In this document: positions 30,263 through 38,957 of the stretch, one piece after another
How the letters are laid out: the number at the start of each line of letters is the position of its first letter
Numbering within the stretch: the first letter of the stretch is position 1
Source: Acidimicrobiales bacterium
GTDB taxonomy: Bacteria > Actinomycetota > Acidimicrobiia > Acidimicrobiales > Aldehydirespiratoraceae
NCBI GenBank assembly: GCA_029263175.1
Contig: JAJCXZ010000004.1
Span: forward strand, 1-50,946
Direction: 5' to 3'
Length of the DNA: 50,946 bases
Program-made: the position numbers and the translations under genes
Notes under the pieces: model-generated
The model's database searches: none
What the model was told of the DNA's origin: nothing
The model's input: only the letters and a program-made list of their open reading frames with translations

Positions 30263-31428
30263 ACTCCGGAGTCGCAGTGGTCCTACCGCAGCGGACCGAA
30301 GGTGTGCACGAGGCCGTGGTTGATCGCACCCTCGTCCTCTGGAACCCGGCCGACCGGCGCCTTCGCACGCTCAATCCGACCGCAGCCGCGATCTGGCGCC
30401 TCATCCCCGCCGTTGAGACACTGGGCGAGCTGACGTCGGGTGTGGCTGATGAGTTCGGTGTCGCGGCGTACCGGGTTCAGGCCGATGTCGAGCGAGTGGT
30501 CGAGGACTTTCGTTCGAGTGGCTTGCTGGAGGGGTCACCCATCAGGCGGCCGCATGGTTCCGGGGACACCCGAGCATCAGGTGTCGACACCAATGCGGTG
30601 ACCGTCTGGGTCGAAGCGCTCGATGCTCGGATTGCGATCGTGGTCGATGATCCGGCGCTGGCTCGCGCCGTCGAGACCGACCTCGCCCCGATCAGCGTCG
30701 GTACCCCGACCGACAAACACGCCGGCGTGTCCACCATCGTTGTCACAACCGCTGAGGGTGGCTTGATCGACCTCACGGTCAACGGTGCCGACTCGGTCAG
30801 GATCGGGTCGCCGGTGGGCGTAGTCGCCCGGGTGCTGGGTGAGGTCAATGCGCTGGCCGTGGCCTCGGTGCCGGATCATCTGGTGCTCCACGCCGGCGCG
30901 ATCGGTCGAGCAGGGCGCACAGTTCTGCTGCCGGCCGATGCCAACAGCGGCAAGTCGACGCTGACCACGGCCCTCGTCGCCGAGGGCTGGCGCTACCTGA
31001 CCGACGAGGCTGCCGCGCTCGATGGCCGGCTGATGGTGCGGCCATACCCGAAGCCGATCGCTCTTGACCCCGGCTCGTTTCATCTGTTCCCCGAGTTTGC
31101 GCCTGACACGCGCGACGATGACCTCTGGTCAGGACGGCGACAGCGGGCCTGGTATCTCGATCCCGCATCGGTCGGCTCGGTCGGAGCACCAACACCGGCC
31201 CACATCGTGGTCTCCCCACGCTGGACCGAGGGAGCCGCAACGGCGGTGACCGCGCTCCGCCCGATCGAGGCACTTCACGAACTGCTGGGCCACGCGTTCG
31301 ATTTTTCCCAGGGCGGAGCCCACGTGTTCGAGATCCTGGCGCGACTCGCGAACGATGTGCCGATGTATCAGCTCAACTACGGCGACCTTCGCGCGGCGAC
31401 CGCTGCCGTGGATCGCCTCTTGGGCTAG
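30259..31428 (+). CDS. PqqD-like domain fused to an HPr-kinase-like domain
   Basis: A 389-residue soluble protein. Residues 10-92 match PqqD/RRE peptide-binding folds (LVLWNPADRRLRTLNPTAAAIW, then VERVVEDFRSSGLLEG). Residues 205-389 match the HprK/P-like kinase family: HLVLHAGAIGRAGRTVLLPA, Walker A ADANSGKST (226-234), and YLTDEAAALDG in place of the DD metal motif. HprK-like proteins of this type occur in capsule and ribosomal-peptide clusters and are thought to phosphorylate small molecules or proteins. It is co-translated with the polymerase-like gene. The target is unknown. Confidence 0.8.
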   Translation: MNSGVAVVLPQRTEGVHEAVVDRTLVLWNPADRRLRTLNPTAAAIWRLIPAVETLGELTSGVADEFGVAAYRVQADVERVVEDFRSSGLLEGSPIRRPHGSGDTRASGVDTNAVTVWVEALDARIAIVVDDPALARAVETDLAPISVGTPTDKHAGVSTIVVTTAEGGLIDLTVNGADSVRIGSPVGVVARVLGEVNALAVASVPDHLVLHAGAIGRAGRTVLLPADANSGKSTLTTALVAEGWRYLTDEAAALDGRLMVRPYPKPIALDPGSFHLFPEFAPDTRDDDLWSGRRQRAWYLDPASVGSVGAPTPAHIVVSPRWTEGAATAVTALRPIEALHELLGHAFDFSQGGAHVFEILARLANDVPMYQLNYGDLRAATAAVDRLLG

Positions 31429-33116
31429 ACGCCGCGTCGCGCTCGGCGGCGTTCCGCCATCGACGGCAGGTCCTCGAGCGGGGGAAGGCCCTTGCGGCGC
31501 CGTTTCTCTTCGTACTGGGCTTCATCGGCGAGCCGCAGGAGCGCCCCACGGGTCACGACGTTGGGGGTGGCGAACGCTATGCCGCACGACAACGAGCGGC
31601 CCGGGCCGGACTCGCTGAAGAGCTTCTGAGCGCTTTCTGCGACCGGCTCGGCGCTGAGCATGCCGCCGCCGTCGAGGATCACGCAGAACTCGTCGCCGCC
31701 GATCCGGCAGACGGTCGATCCTTCGATCGGGCCCGCAGCAGCAGCGAGTGACCGAGCGGCGTGAACGAGTAGTTCGTCGCCGGCGGCATGGCCGTCCGTG
31801 TCGTTGACGATCTTCAAACCATCGACGTCGCACATGATGAGCGCAACATCTTGGCGATCGATGGGAGAGCGGTCGAAGATCTGGGTGAGCTGCTGTTCGA
31901 GGACTCGGCGATTGCCGAGCCCGGTGAGCGGATCGCGAAGGGCGAGTTCCTCGAACTCGGCAATGCGTTCTGCCTGCGAGACGGCTGCCGCCACGTGTGT
32001 CGACACAAGGCGGAGTGTGGCCAGATCGTCGTGGTCGAGCATGCCGGCGTCAGCGTGGGTGGTAGCCCAGGCAACGCCCCAGACGCTGTCACCGATGATG
32101 ATCGGCCACGCGGCTTCTGATCGAAGCCCTCGGCTGTGCAGCGAGATCGTGCCCGGGTCATCGGCGCGGCTCTCGTCGGTCGACCGGACAAAGCCCTGGC
32201 CGTCGAGCAGCCGGTCGAGTCCAGGTCGGGCGTCTTCGCCATGGGTCTCGTCGACGGGGAAGCGTTCGCTCCCCGAACCGGTGTTGACCAGGATGTCGAG
32301 GGACCGTTCGTCGTGGTCGAGTCGGCCGATGCTGATCGACGATGCGTTGAGCGCCTTCTTGGCCTGATCAGCGATCACGGTCAACACTTCGGTCATGTTG
32401 TTGGCCGCTCGGACCGCAGCGCCGATCGACACCAGTGCTTCAACCGGCGAGTTGCGTTCGGTGGGCACGAACCGGTCGAGGCCACCGAGGACTTCACCGA
32501 GATCGAGTTCGCCGCTGAGGGGGTCACCGGATTCGAGCTCGAGCGCCGCCGCGGCACCCAGGTCCGGGTCGAGCGCCGAGCCGAGAAGCTCGTCAACCCG
32601 ACGACGGCGAGCGGTCCAGTTGGGAGCTGCTCCCGCGGTGGGGTGACCCACGAGAGTGGCCGCAAGGGCGAGCAGACGAGCGGAGAGCGGGATGTCGGGT
32701 CCGCGTAGGGCGTGGGGCCCGCCGCTTCCGTCCCAACGCTCGTACTGATGCCGAACCGCGTTTGCGCAGCCCCCGAGCCCGGGAAGCGACTTGAGCATGT
32801 TCGACGAGAGCACGGCCGAGGAGGGGTCGGGCACGATGTCGACCGTGCCGACCGGGCGCACGTGGGTGAGAAGAATCCCGATCTCGGCAAGTAATGATCC
32901 GGTTATCGCATCCACACGATCCTGCACCGGGGAGCCAGCGGCGGCGGCGATCCGGTCGACCAGGTGGGCCCGTAACGCGGCGCGCCGCGCCGCGGCGGGA
33001 TCAAAGACATCCAGAGCTTGAGCCAGCGCGGTGACCGACGCACGGGCGGAGCGATCGAGGGGGCGGCTGGCAGTATCACTCGCGCGGGCAGGCGCGTCGG
33101 TGAACAAGTGCTCCAT
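31425..33116 (-). CDS. Diguanylate cyclase with GAF and degenerate HD-GYP domain
   Basis: A 563-residue signalling protein. Residues about 40-160 resemble HD-GYP but are degenerate: QYERWDGSGGPHALRGPDIPL replaces the usual HHExxDGxGYP, so phosphodiesterase activity is unlikely. Residues 225-380 form a GAF sensor domain and 385-550 a GGDEF domain with RDPLTGLGNRR, CDVDGLKIVND and an intact GGDEF (473-477). It should make cyclic di-GMP from GTP. There is no RxxD inhibitory site before GGDEF, so product feedback may be lacking. GAGGAGG lies nine bases before the ATG. It could control the adjacent exopolysaccharide genes. Confidence 0.87.
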   Translation of the reverse strand: MEHLFTDAPARASDTASRPLDRSARASVTALAQALDVFDPAAARRAALRAHLVDRIAAAAGSPVQDRVDAITGSLLAEIGILLTHVRPVGTVDIVPDPSSAVLSSNMLKSLPGLGGCANAVRHQYERWDGSGGPHALRGPDIPLSARLLALAATLVGHPTAGAAPNWTARRRRVDELLGSALDPDLGAAAALELESGDPLSGELDLGEVLGGLDRFVPTERNSPVEALVSIGAAVRAANNMTEVLTVIADQAKKALNASSISIGRLDHDERSLDILVNTGSGSERFPVDETHGEDARPGLDRLLDGQGFVRSTDESRADDPGTISLHSRGLRSEAAWPIIIGDSVWGVAWATTHADAGMLDHDDLATLRLVSTHVAAAVSQAERIAEFEELALRDPLTGLGNRRVLEQQLTQIFDRSPIDRQDVALIMCDVDGLKIVNDTDGHAAGDELLVHAARSLAAAAGPIEGSTVCRIGGDEFCVILDGGGMLSAEPVAESAQKLFSESGPGRSLSCGIAFATPNVVTRGALLRLADEAQYEEKRRRKGLPPLEDLPSMAERRRARRGV

Positions 33117-33217
33117 GATCTCGCGCCTCCTCGCAACCGGCCTACTTCCGCTATTTGTAGCAGAAACCGATGGTCACGGAAAGTCTAGCAACTGACCACA
33201 GAGGGTGGTTGTCCGAA

Positions 33218-33844
33218 TCAAGAGGCGGCCAGCTCAGTCATGCGTTCGGTCAGGCCGTCCACGCCCATTGCGCCGATCACGACATCGAAGGTGCTGTCAT
33301 CGTTGATGAACGCAAAGGACGGCTGACTGGCCACCCCGAACGACTCCCAGATCTCACCTTCGAGATCAGGAATATGGGGAAAGGCGTCGACTCCGTTGTT
33401 GGTCACGAAGCGGCGCATTGGGGACAGGTCATCACGGCTGGAAACACCGACAACGTTGACTTGGCCTTCGAATTGTTCCTGTACCAGTGCGACCGCACCG
33501 GATTCTCTGATGCAAGTCGGTCACCAGGGTGCCCAGAACCACAGGACGAGATCTTGGCCGGCATAGTCGCCGGAGTCGAACTGTGATCCGTCGACCAGTT
33601 CGCCGCTGAAGCTGAGCGGCCAGTCGACGCCTGCACCGTCGCTTGCGGGATCATCGGCCGGCGCTTGGCCCTCAGCCGCGGGTACCGCGTCGGTCTCCCC
33701 CGTGGAGGTTGCGTCGGTGGAGGAGTCGCTTTCGCTCGCGTCCGTGGATTCGGCGCTGGTCTCACTCGATGGGTCGCCACCACACGCCGCGCCGAACAGC
33801 GCGACTGCGAAGAGGCAGGGGAGAATTCGCTTCACGGGCTCCAT
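33218..33844 (-). CDS. Thioredoxin-like lipoprotein, probable selenoprotein (UPTC active site)
   Basis: A 208-residue exported redoxin read through an in-frame TGA at 33521-33523 (residue 108). The N-terminus has a lipoprotein signal with lipobox FGAAC, then an acidic Ser/Asp/Glu linker, then a TlpA/DsbE-like domain: VLWFWAPW-TGA-PTC, VNVVGVSS and the cis-Pro loop VASQPSFAFI. The TGA occupies the first Cys of the WCxxC motif and the second Cys (111) is kept. The frame, motif spacing and both sides of the fold are undamaged, and a hairpin with GGUC apex sits 20-37 bases after the codon's first base. Selenocysteine insertion explains this best; a TGC-to-TGA pseudogene or sequencing error is the alternative. 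Automatic callers would split it into two pieces. Confidence 0.82.
33484..33501 (-). promoter_or_regulatory. Candidate bacterial SECIS element
   Basis: In the mRNA sense the sequence is CCGGTGC-GGTC-GCACTGG: a 7-bp stem (one G-U pair) and a GGUC tetraloop. The loop begins 26 bases after the TGA, within the range accepted for bacterial SECIS elements. The GGUC apex is the one in the E. coli fdhF element that binds SelB. The stem lies wholly inside coding sequence. Confidence 0.72.
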
Positions 33845-34087: not shown

Positions 34088-35503
34088 GTGAGTGCGACGG
34101 ACGCACAACATGATGTCGTCGTTATCGGCGGCGGACCTGGTGGCTACGCAGCGGCGCTCTACGGGGCCGGGATCGGGCTCGACATCGGGCTCATCGAAAA
34201 CAACATCCTCGGCGGCACGTGCCTGAACGTCGGCTGCATCCCGGCAAAGGAACTCCTCGAGACGGCACACGTGTTCCGCACCGTCCAGCACGCGGGTGAC
34301 TTCGGTGTGAATGCCTCCGAGCCGGTGCTCGACTGGTCGGTCACCATGCAGCGCAAGCAGGGCATCATCGACCAGCTCGTCGGCGGTCTCGCCAGCCTGC
34401 TCACGTCCAAGAAGGTCACGGTCTATGACGGCGCCGGCTCGCTTGGCCCCGACCGCACGGTCACGGTCACCGGTGGTGACGGTGAGCAGATGACGCTCAC
34501 GGGCAATTCGGTCATCCTCGCCACGGGTTCCCAGCCCCGCACAATTCCCGGCTTCGAGATCGATGGCCGACTGGTGGTCACCTCCGACGAGATGCTGTCG
34601 ATCCCTGAGCTGCCCGTGTCGGCAGTCGTGATCGGCGGCGGCGCGATCGGTTGCGAGTTCGCATCGATGATGGGCGACCTCGGTGTCGACGTCACCGTGC
34701 TCGAAGCGCTCCCGCAGATTCTCACCGGCTGCGATCCCGATGCCACCCGTGTTGTCCAGCGCTCGTTCAAAAAGCGCAAGATCAACACCCGCACGGGCGT
34801 CATGGTCGGTGGCCACACTCCGTCTGCCGACGGCCGTTCGACGACGGTCGCTTTCGGCGATGGCGAGTCGATCGACGTCGAACTCATCGTGATGTCGGTC
34901 GGACGCCGCCCGTATGCCGACCTACTCGGCCTTGATGGCACCGGGGTTCAGATCGACGATCGGGGCTTCGTGGTTGCCGACGGACGCTGCCGTACGGGTG
35001 AGCCCGGAGTCTGGGCCGTGGGCGACATCATCAACACCCCGGCACTCGCGCACGTGGCGTTCGCCGAGGGCATGCTCGCGATCCGAGACATCCTGGGCGA
35101 GGAACCGACGCCGCTCGATCATCACGGCACGCCGTGGTGTATCTACTGCCATCCCGAGGTCGCCTTCGCCGGACACACGGAAGAATCCGCCAAGGAGGCG
35201 GGTTTCGATGTGGTCACCTCGAAACACTCATTCATCGGCAACGGACGCGCCAAGATCGTGGGCGAGACCGACGGCGTGGTGAAGGTCATTGCCGAAAAAC
35301 GTCCCGACGGTACCGGAGGTCGTATTCTCGGCGTCCACATGGTCGGCCCCTGGGTCACCGAACAACTCGGCCAGGGCTACCTCGCCGTGAACTGGGAGGC
35401 CACCGTTGACGATGTGGCGGCCTTCATTCAACCCCATCCCACTATGAGCGAGATGTTCGGAGAGACCGTCATGTCACTCACCGGCCGTTCGCTGCACGGC
35501 TGA
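34088..35503 (+). CDS. lpdA: Dihydrolipoyl dehydrogenase (E3)
   Basis: A 471-residue FAD-NAD oxidoreductase that reoxidises dihydrolipoamide of the 2-oxoacid dehydrogenase complexes. FAD motif VVVIGGGPGGYAAAL, redox disulfide GGTCLNVGCIPAKELL (CxxxxC), NAD motif VVIGGGAIGCEFASM, GVWAVGDI, and the C-terminal dimer motif AFIQPHPTMSEMFGE with the catalytic His-Glu region are all present. GTG 34088 is the only in-frame start near the conserved N-terminus. It is followed after 17 bases by the E2 gene and then LipB-LipA, so the operon provides E3, E2 and lipoate cofactor. Confidence 0.95.
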   Translation: MSATDAQHDVVVIGGGPGGYAAALYGAGIGLDIGLIENNILGGTCLNVGCIPAKELLETAHVFRTVQHAGDFGVNASEPVLDWSVTMQRKQGIIDQLVGGLASLLTSKKVTVYDGAGSLGPDRTVTVTGGDGEQMTLTGNSVILATGSQPRTIPGFEIDGRLVVTSDEMLSIPELPVSAVVIGGGAIGCEFASMMGDLGVDVTVLEALPQILTGCDPDATRVVQRSFKKRKINTRTGVMVGGHTPSADGRSTTVAFGDGESIDVELIVMSVGRRPYADLLGLDGTGVQIDDRGFVVADGRCRTGEPGVWAVGDIINTPALAHVAFAEGMLAIRDILGEEPTPLDHHGTPWCIYCHPEVAFAGHTEESAKEAGFDVVTSKHSFIGNGRAKIVGETDGVVKVIAEKRPDGTGGRILGVHMVGPWVTEQLGQGYLAVNWEATVDDVAAFIQPHPTMSEMFGETVMSLTGRSLHG

Positions 35504-37257: not shown

Positions 37258-38957
37258 GCTCCGTTGCTGACCTCGACGCGAGCCTGCGAGTCCGCTGGCT
37301 CGGCAGGGTCTCGTACCGCGACGCGCTGGCGCTTCAACGTCAGCTGTTCGCGGGGCGAGGCGATCATCTGCTGCTGTTGGAGCACGATCATGTCGTCACG
37401 CTCAGCAAGCGCACCCCCCGCGAACACCTCTTGGTCGATGCGGAGTCACTGGGCGCCGATGTCGTCTCCACCGACCGCGGAGGCGACATCACCTACCACG
37501 GGCCCGGCCAACTCGTCGGCTACCCGATCCTCACTGTCCCCGGCAAGCGGGGTGGCGGCATGGCTGACACCGCGGCCTATGTGGAGAGCATCGAGCAGCT
37601 CCTGATCGACGTGCTCGCTGACCTGGGGTTGGCGTGTGCGCGCATTCCGCACTCCAACGGCGTGTGGGTGGATGTGGACGGGGTTCGCCCCCGCAAGATC
37701 GCCGCCATCGGCGTTCGTATCTCCCGTGGGAGATCCATGCACGGATTCGCGCTCAACGTCAAGCCCGACCTGACGTGGTTCGACAGAATCGTGCCCTGTG
37801 GCATCAGCGACAAGGGCGTCACGTCGTTGGCCGCGGAGGGGTTCGGTCGCTCCATGCACGAGGTCGTCGACCTGATCGCGGCCGAGGCGGCGCGGCGCTG
37901 GGGCCGCAACGTCCCCGTCGATCGCGCCGACGTAGCCTGGCGGGTTCCCGCCTCCGATCTCGCCCCGTTCACGCGGGGTGAAGGCGCGGGCACACCCGTT
38001 GGTCGACAAGGTGTCGGATACGGCGGGCAGGCCGATGGCACGTCGGTGCGGTTGCTCGGCCGCCTGGCCGAAGCGGGAGTCGCCGCTGATCCGGTGCGGT
38101 TGAAGTCCCGCAAACCCGAATGGATGCGGGTGCCCCTCGACACTGGTCCCACTTACCGCGAGATCAAGAAGACGATGCGCGATCTCGACCTCGTCACCGT
38201 GTGCGAAGAGGCTGGTTGCCCCAACATCTCCGAGTGTTGGAACGACGGCACGGCCACGTTCATGATCCTCGGCGAACGTTGCACCCGTGCGTGCGGTTTC
38301 TGCCTTGTCGATACTCAGAAGCCTGCCGCCGCCGACCCCGGCGAGCCCGGTCGCGTGGCTGAAGCGGTCGATCGGATGGGCCTGAAGCACACGGTGGTCA
38401 CCATGGTGGCCCGCGATGATCTCGCCGACGGGGGAGCAGCAGCAGTGGCGGAAACGGTTTCCGCCATCCGGGCGAAGGTACCGTCGTCTCGTGTTGAAGT
38501 GCTCGTATCGGACTTCAAAGGCGACGACGAAGCGCTGAAGACCGTCTTCGACGCTCGTCCAGACGTCTTCAACCACAACATCGAGACCGTCGCCCGCTTG
38601 CAGCGAGCGGTTCGGCCGTCGGCGGGCTACGCCCGATCACTTTCCGTGCTCGCCCGGGCCAAGCGGGCCGGGCTCGTCACCAAGTCATCGATCATCGTCG
38701 GCATGGGCGAGACCGAGGACGAGGTCGTGCAGACGATGGCTGACCTCGCTGCGATCGGTGTCGACATCGTCACGATCGGTCAGTACCTCCGCCCCACATC
38801 ACACCACCTACCCGTGGCCGTGTGGTGGGAGCCGAAGGTGTTCGCCCACTGGAAAGAGCAGGGCGAAGCGATGGGCATCGACCATGTCGAGTCGAGCCCG
38901 CTCACCCGCTCCAGCTACCACGCTCGAGAAGCGGCCGATGCCGCCGAACGGTCCTAG
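37254..38957 (+). CDS. lipBA: Octanoyltransferase LipB fused to lipoyl synthase LipA
   Basis: A 567-residue fusion. The first part is LipB, which moves octanoate from acyl-carrier protein to lipoyl domains: RGGDITYHGPGQLVGYP (about 75-91), Lys148 in RKIAAIGV and Cys182 in VPCGISDKGVTSL. After a Gly-rich linker comes LipA, the radical-SAM enzyme that inserts two sulfurs: CEEAGCPNISEC (Cys317, 322, 328) and CTRACGFC (Cys343, 347, 350), ending RSSYHA. No ATG, GTG or TTG precedes the LipB fold; CTG at 37254, overlapping the E2 stop and with GGCGGAG five bases before it, is the likely start. TTG at 37377 would delete the first LipB strand. Confidence 0.85.
   Translation: MSSVADLDASLRVRWLGRVSYRDALALQRQLFAGRGDHLLLLEHDHVVTLSKRTPREHLLVDAESLGADVVSTDRGGDITYHGPGQLVGYPILTVPGKRGGGMADTAAYVESIEQLLIDVLADLGLACARIPHSNGVWVDVDGVRPRKIAAIGVRISRGRSMHGFALNVKPDLTWFDRIVPCGISDKGVTSLAAEGFGRSMHEVVDLIAAEAARRWGRNVPVDRADVAWRVPASDLAPFTRGEGAGTPVGRQGVGYGGQADGTSVRLLGRLAEAGVAADPVRLKSRKPEWMRVPLDTGPTYREIKKTMRDLDLVTVCEEAGCPNISECWNDGTATFMILGERCTRACGFCLVDTQKPAAADPGEPGRVAEAVDRMGLKHTVVTMVARDDLADGGAAAVAETVSAIRAKVPSSRVEVLVSDFKGDDEALKTVFDARPDVFNHNIETVARLQRAVRPSAGYARSLSVLARAKRAGLVTKSSIIVGMGETEDEVVQTMADLAAIGVDIVTIGQYLRPTSHHLPVAVWWEPKVFAHWKEQGEAMGIDHVESSPLTRSSYHAREAADAAERS

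Follow-up and report, generated by a model that had tools for sequence, protein, structure and literature searches.

The window analysed here, a stretch of 50,946 nucleotides from an Acidimicrobiales bacterium, carries on its minus strand a thioredoxin-like reading frame that is cut in two by a single TGA, which raises the question whether the locus is a gene broken by a point mutation or one that encodes selenocysteine (Sec). A preliminary description, made from the DNA alone, had proposed the latter, with a Sec-Pro-Thr-Cys active site. Its premise, that the two minus-strand pieces are one frame, was borne out by translation through the TGA at 33521-33523: inspection of the frame from 33844 to 33218 revealed no other interruption. 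With the TGA read as Sec (U) and the ATG at 33844 as start, the product comprises 208 residues and terminates at a second TGA. The elements of the gene are as follows.

33218..33844, minus strand: selenoprotein gene, whole frame including the final TGA stop (ATG-to-stop span; homologues align across the TGA)
33833..33835, minus strand: conserved GTG, probable true start (GTG-AAR-CGA identical in 4/4 genus members)
33782..33835, minus strand: putative signal peptide with lipobox-like ...LFGAAC (pattern match, 4/4 genus members)
33521..33523, minus strand: TGA, predicted Sec codon opening the UxxC redox motif (U108 if translation starts at the ATG; homologue comparison)
33512..33514, minus strand: TGC, codon of the resolving Cys in UPTC (C111; invariant in alignments)
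33484..33501, minus strand: SECIS hairpin CCGGUGC-GGUC-GCACUGG (Sec-copy alignment, stem compensation)
33218..33220, minus strand: terminating TGA (GGTC absent from the corresponding loop position 3' of it)

The predicted active site reads WFWAPW-U-P-T-C, with U as residue 108 of the ATG reading, in the translated context QDLVLWFWAPWUPTCIRESGAVALVQEQF. The TGA therefore does stand at the first Cys of a WAPW-CxxC motif, where homologues have TGA or Cys, and the second Cys, which had been described as intact, proved invariant as C111 in an alignment of 32 sequences, as did Q174, with P175 nearly invariant. The proposed length of 208 residues holds for the reading from ATG 33844, but among four genus members this in-frame upstream ATG is present in the window only, while the GTG at 33833-33835 is common to all four, so that the product probably has 205 residues. 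A lipobox-like pattern, which we take to be of the PROSITE PS51257 type, matches the N termini of the window protein and of three genus relatives by pattern match alone; Cys 21 (ATG reading) would be the lipid-anchored residue. Two other open frames overlap the same DNA, at 33170-33586 on the plus strand and at 33403-33783 on the minus strand in a different frame.

Homologues were sought in 119 genomes, the host's own and those of relatives, 116 of which gave matches. Among the matches listed, stops inside the match were exclusively TGA, usually one and in one row two. Thirty-nine of the 42 listed rows with E <= 4.2e-27 contained TGA, and all three without it came from genomes lacking selA. 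To 30 loci from the genome search, a scan of species genomes contributed a further 80, the best among 522 relatives and labelled Acidimicrobiales, Acidimicrobiia or other Actinomycetota; in 110/110 of these loci the codon preceding xxC was TGA or Cys. The alignment of homologues that the preliminary description had called for thus gave a clear outcome at this position, TGA or Cys, with other stops absent among the matches listed. After identical copies had been dropped, 95 distinct ones remained, window included, 49 with TGA and 46 with Cys (TGC/TGT); the 49 TGA copies of this set are labelled Acidimicrobiia or come from genomes of the window's own order. The same TGA recurs in many separate assemblies, and at this codon Cys and Sec copies are one base apart.

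An Rfam scan of the window returned no family over threshold, and the hairpin was therefore found by comparison. When the 49 Sec copies are aligned without gaps, the distance from the TGA is 19 nt to the start of the 18-nt hairpin and 26 nt to its GGUC loop. The preliminary description mentions neither this hairpin nor the GTG start common to the genus members. The hairpin loop, as GGTC, is found in 48/49 Sec copies versus 2/46 Cys copies, and GCGGTCGC is in place in 44/49 versus 0/46. Over 48 distinct rows, 88.7% of the cells of the seven stem pairs were paired and 35 were changed on both sides, compared to 28-51% paired and 2-26 doubly changed cells in controls in which the stem had been slid. 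Double-sided changes are seen in four pairs, with C-G, G-U, G-C, A-U and U-G at columns 26/37 and C-G, G-C and U-A at columns 24/39. The observed paired percentage, number of doubly changed cells and covariation score lay beyond all 500 shuffles; the number of doubly changed pairs was reached in 50/500 and the number of further types in 191/500. The pair at columns 25-38 is unpaired in 23/48 distinct rows, and RNAalifold, unaided, recovered 4/7 stem pairs. Of the 49 copies, 28 are equal in length and align without gaps; wherever two of these have the same residue at codon 9 or 10 after the TGA, they also use the same codon for it, against a mean same-residue codon identity of 0.54 (sd 0.19) over 72 columns.

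A published bSECIS model specifies a loop of 3-9 nt, a stem of 4-16 bp, a G in the first two loop positions, a distance of 16-37 nt from the UGA and an energy of at most -7.5 kcal/mol (excerpts of PMC13188914). With a 4-nt GGUC loop, 7 bp, 26 nt and -10.4 kcal/mol for the 18-nt stretch, the window hairpin agrees with the model as excerpted. Its z-score is -3.28 for the 18-nt and -2.66 for the 29-nt version, and those of two relatives, L025 and L061, are -3.30 and -1.27. When four longer stretches (48-88 nt) were folded as single sequences, the z-scores lay between -0.34 and +0.43 and the pairings were mostly different ones; nearly all computational tests identify a selenoprotein gene, these folds being the exception. 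A different hairpin nearer the TGA, partly suggested by the 48-88 nt folds, was replaced by the alignment-based one. Our SECIS model scored the window site, which is among the model's rows, at 63.3 bits versus 18.3 for the next site in the genome; the two runners-up (18.3 and 17.7 bits) lack a TGA at a suitable spacing, and scoring 150 of 5213 first-look candidates yielded no second convincing SECIS site in the genome. Within the order, the hairpin can serve as a search tool for this gene.

The search for selA, selB, selC and selD that had been suggested for the host genome (4,397,103 bases in 111 contigs, 97% complete) found SelA, SelB, SelD and tRNA-Sec all present, each exceeding its curated cut-off. 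By profile search, selA lies on contig C75 (386 bits, cut-off 268, 2.1e-115), directly followed by selB (278 bits, cut-off 242); selD (355 bits, cut-off 125, 3.7e-106) has an in-frame TGA in GAGUGCK and is of the Sec type, and one tRNA-Sec (64 bits, gathering score 47) is called by ARAGORN as tRNA-SeC with anticodon tca. Matches over cut-off in 14 control genomes numbered one for selA, two for selB, two for selD and five for tRNA-Sec; with 5/14 controls over the gathering score, a match to the tRNA-Sec model is not specific by itself. Two other genes of the host genome contain an in-frame TGA. One, thioredoxin-like and 31% identical (L141, G000:C28:10429-10917), has the motif WFWAPH-UPTC and a lipobox-like N terminus, without the GCGGTCGC hairpin in place; the other, a formate dehydrogenase alpha homologue with TGA as UHAP (L144, G000:C92:25294-27162; 625 bits, below the cut-off of 666), is likely a further selenoprotein.

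Across the 119 genomes, selA gave a match in 92 (89 over cut-off) and none in 27. TGA rows were counted among the matches listed, down to E ~4e-10 and with paralogues included. At least one such row occurs in 58/119 genomes, all 58 of which have a selA match, and in 0/27 of the selA-less ones (Fisher 4.5e-10, with genomes counted irrespective of kinship). A second check, of 20 genomes, gave a selA match for 15 of the 16 with a TGA copy; of the four with Cys copies only, two have selA and two do not. In G389, which has a TGA copy, selA is in two pieces and below cut-off. No selA match was obtained in G380, a draft of 590 contigs from outside the order, despite its TGA copy, so that either a contig is missing or this genome is an exception. 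The G380 copy (L157, G380:C235:4903-5376) has the motif WFWAPWUPSC.

Could the TGA nevertheless be a nonsense mutation or a sequencing error, which turned TGC or TGT into TGA and thereby broke a CxxC gene? The single base that separates Cys from Sec copies at this codon is consistent with such an event, but an identical TGA in 49 distinct copies argues against it, as do a hairpin that is kept with the TGA and not in Cys copies, and the co-occurrence of TGA copies with selA. The stretch 3' of the TGA, moreover, is under purifying selection as protein: comparing the window with three genus members, pN/pS is 0.231, 0.253 and 0.257 for 100 codons that follow the TGA and 0.243, 0.245 and 0.275 for 34 codons that precede it. 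In the two shifted frames of the minus strand it is 1.4-2.5, which favours the reported frame over these two. The preliminary description had thus rightly noted that no decay is seen beyond the TGA, where pN/pS is 0.23-0.26, and we regard a broken gene as exceedingly improbable. An assembly error was likewise considered, and was rejected along with nonsense mutation and a reassigned code.

A lineage-specific recoding of TGA (to Trp or Cys, say) or read-through without selenium would also account for a frame that is open once TGA stands for a residue, and near-cognate read-through of UGA is known. Against this, the terminal stops of the 49 Sec copies are 22 TGA (window included), 19 TAG and 8 TAA, and GGTC follows at the loop position in 0/22 of the copies that end in TGA; that so many use TGA as their own terminator, none with GGTC after it, is strong evidence against a reassigned code. 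Across the 110 loci the position holds Cys or TGA and never Trp, TGA copies track selA, and the genome possesses the Sec machinery, so that we consider this explanation highly improbable too. Comparison of sequences demonstrates a conserved predicted Sec codon, found as TGA in 49 copies and replaced by Cys in 46, together with a SECIS-type hairpin, Sec machinery and purifying selection, and on these the proposed Sec-Pro-Thr-Cys selenoprotein stands: the gene very probably encodes a functional selenoprotein of thioredoxin fold.

Which reaction this protein might catalyse is less settled. Four Pfam families match over cut-off, Redoxin (PF08534, 50.3 bits versus a cut-off of 26.6), AhpC-TSA, Thioredoxin_8 and Thioredoxin, and eight NCBIfam models match under cut-off, ResA best. 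In a profile search, the best solved relative was M. tuberculosis DsbF (Rv1677, PDB 3IOS; 1.2e-48), followed by DsbE/MPT53 (Rv2878c, 1LU4; 4.4e-36). The AlphaFold model has a mean pLDDT of 83, with 127/208 residues at 90 or more, the thioredoxin domain mostly > 90 and the N-terminal 70 residues low; a fold search with it also placed 3IOS first (41% identity, TM 0.91 by target and 0.60 by query) and 1LU4 second (TM 0.90 by target), with ResA structures as the next group. DsbF and DsbE being nearest by both sequence and predicted fold, the window protein is probably an envelope disulfide oxidoreductase. Like them, it is an actinobacterial protein with a single thioredoxin domain, exported in their case and predicted to be so here. 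Whereas they use Cys-x-x-Cys, a site that is absent from the window protein but has its Cys in the Cys-form copies, the window protein has Sec as first residue (UxxC) and its gene a SECIS hairpin; if Sec does the chemistry of Cys, it can work like the DsbE/DsbF family. Mt-DsbE and Mt-DsbF are oxidants, which refold hirudin and do not reduce insulin (excerpts of PMC3853704), and we therefore favour a disulfide-forming or -exchanging role in the envelope, with Sec as the attacking residue; the disulfide-forming role seems reasonably likely on these grounds. That Sec is inserted but the protein acts as a reductase or a peroxidase-like enzyme, in a ResA, CcmG or Prx-like role, is a possibility to which we assign a smaller but appreciable chance: the best Pfam matches, Redoxin and AhpC-TSA, point that way, as do ResA as best NCBIfam match, albeit under cut-off, and the ResA structures in the fold search. 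Opposed to it are the nearest structures by sequence and fold, both of reported oxidants (excerpts of PMC3853704), and the motif, which is UxxC and not the TxxU of Sec peroxiredoxins (excerpts of PMC13188914).

For the disulfide-forming reading, we infer the following course of events. The gene would give rise to an exported, probably lipid-anchored thioredoxin-fold protein, located outside the membrane, in which Sec takes the place of the nucleophilic N-terminal Cys (Sec-Pro-Thr-Cys). Along the established bacterial pathway, SelA would convert Ser-tRNA-Sec to Sec-tRNA-Sec with selenophosphate from SelD, and SelB would bind the GGUC hairpin 26 nt 3' of the UGA and bring in the Sec-tRNA, such that Sec is physically inserted; the ribosome would pass the first UGA and end at the second, which is without a hairpin. 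In the mature protein, Sec would attack the substrate and Cys111 resolve the selenenylsulfide, the protein thereby forming or exchanging disulfides in exported proteins as M. tuberculosis DsbE and DsbF do.

The preliminary description had called Sec in an exported redox lipoprotein of an actinobacterium noteworthy, a claim that has to be toned down. UxxC thioredoxin-fold selenoproteins are already catalogued, among others as 'Redoxin family protein' PF08534 and 'Thiol-disulfide isomerase-like protein' cd02966 (excerpts of PMC13188914), so that the kind is known; such families were described from marine metagenomes as Trx-like 1 and Prx-like 3 (excerpts of PMC1088965 and PMC2398784), and Sec use in Actinobacteria has been reported (excerpts of PMC5029168). 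The window protein combines a PF08534 domain, its best Pfam match, with UxxC (UPTC) on a thioredoxin fold and, compared by description only, may belong to the catalogued PF08534/cd02966 families, for which the excerpts of PMC13188914, PMC1088965 and PMC2398784 show no tie to Actinomycetota or to a lipoprotein. In the open-licence literature searched, we found no report of this selenoprotein family in Acidimicrobiales. The families of Sec-containing thioredoxin and Prx-like thiol:disulfide oxidoreductase are generally cytosolic. They share UxxC on a thioredoxin fold with the window protein (excerpts of PMC13188914) but are of another sequence type, whereas the window protein has a putative signal peptide and WFWAPW. 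According to a 2026 review, selenoproteins in bacteria belong mostly to anaerobic metabolism and are seldom kept by aerobes (excerpts of PMC13188914); probably exported oxidoreductases with Sec and Cys forms in one phylum offer a natural test of Sec retention outside the cytoplasm. Wherever gene prediction treats TGA as a stop, such genes would be split or missed, and a conserved, probably exported redox protein of uncultured actinobacteria is thus probably misannotated in many genomes.

How far does the Sec form extend beyond the order? The sample drawn from the 522 relatives was biased in this respect, because one of the two patterns used in that scan, WFWAPWC, finds Cys copies only and because retention was limited to the 80 best loci. 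Among 296 genomes drawn evenly across the phylum, 21 had a match at E 1e-20 or better; 17 of these lie outside the order, and 14 of the 17 had a TGA copy, so that a Sec form restricted to Acidimicrobiales was rejected. The TGA is at the motif in 14/14 of these copies (WFWAPWU, or WMWAPWU, WLWAPWU, WLWTPWU and similar), and GCGGTCGC is in place in four. The other ten (within L148, L150, L152-L162 and L164) lack GCGGTCGC at the place of the window hairpin; L150 and L160 have a foldable hairpin nearer the TGA (z -1.35 and -1.76, not clearly beyond shuffles), and a closer hairpin may serve as SECIS in some copies outside the order.

Two trees were computed by a quick method, both unrooted and from few columns (140 in the 95-row tree). 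With 95 rows, Sec copies lay on one side of one branch (support 82); after addition of 28 rows (123 in total, 72 Sec and 51 Cys), two Sec/Cys changes were needed, 50 Cys rows being set apart by a single branch (SH-aLRT 95) and the remaining Cys copy pairing with an adjoining Sec copy in G270 (support 95). The two G270 copies stand side by side (L163, G270:C154:60484-61731) and perhaps reflect a recent Sec/Cys switch after duplication. Tentatively, and with no great confidence, one might see in Actinomycetota an old selenium-dependent envelope disulfide system, its Sec form present in several families outside the order, with the Cys clade possibly descended from a Sec ancestor and the SECIS altered or in another register elsewhere. 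The Cys clade in question holds copies from Mycolicibacterium, Pseudonocardiaceae and Streptomyces, and a Sec-to-Cys switch of such kind has been called rare (excerpts of PMC13188914).

The selenoprotein gene is flanked by the following two genes, assigned by domain matches.

34088..35503, plus strand: dihydrolipoamide dehydrogenase-type flavoprotein (Pyr_redox_2, Pyr_redox_dim), divergent upstream neighbour
31425-33116, minus strand: single protein with HD_5, GAF and GGDEF, immediate downstream neighbour

A dihydrolipoamide dehydrogenase-like homologue at >=65% identity, that is, at least 65%, accompanies 23/48 other distinct Sec loci (L020-L040, L042, L094), and Cys loci gave three weak matches of this type at 28-32% (L047, L093, L112); because many loci are short, absence of this neighbour says little. 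The HD/GAF/GGDEF protein has homologues in 14 distinct relative loci, at 38-91% identity. We attach no function to the gene order around the selenoprotein and regard the flavoprotein as a conserved neighbour only. Elsewhere in the window, near genes for E2 and E3, one plus-strand frame at 37377-38957 joins LplA-B_cat (residues 2-170) to the lipoyl synthase domains LIAS_N and Radical_SAM, a LipB-LipA-like fusion.
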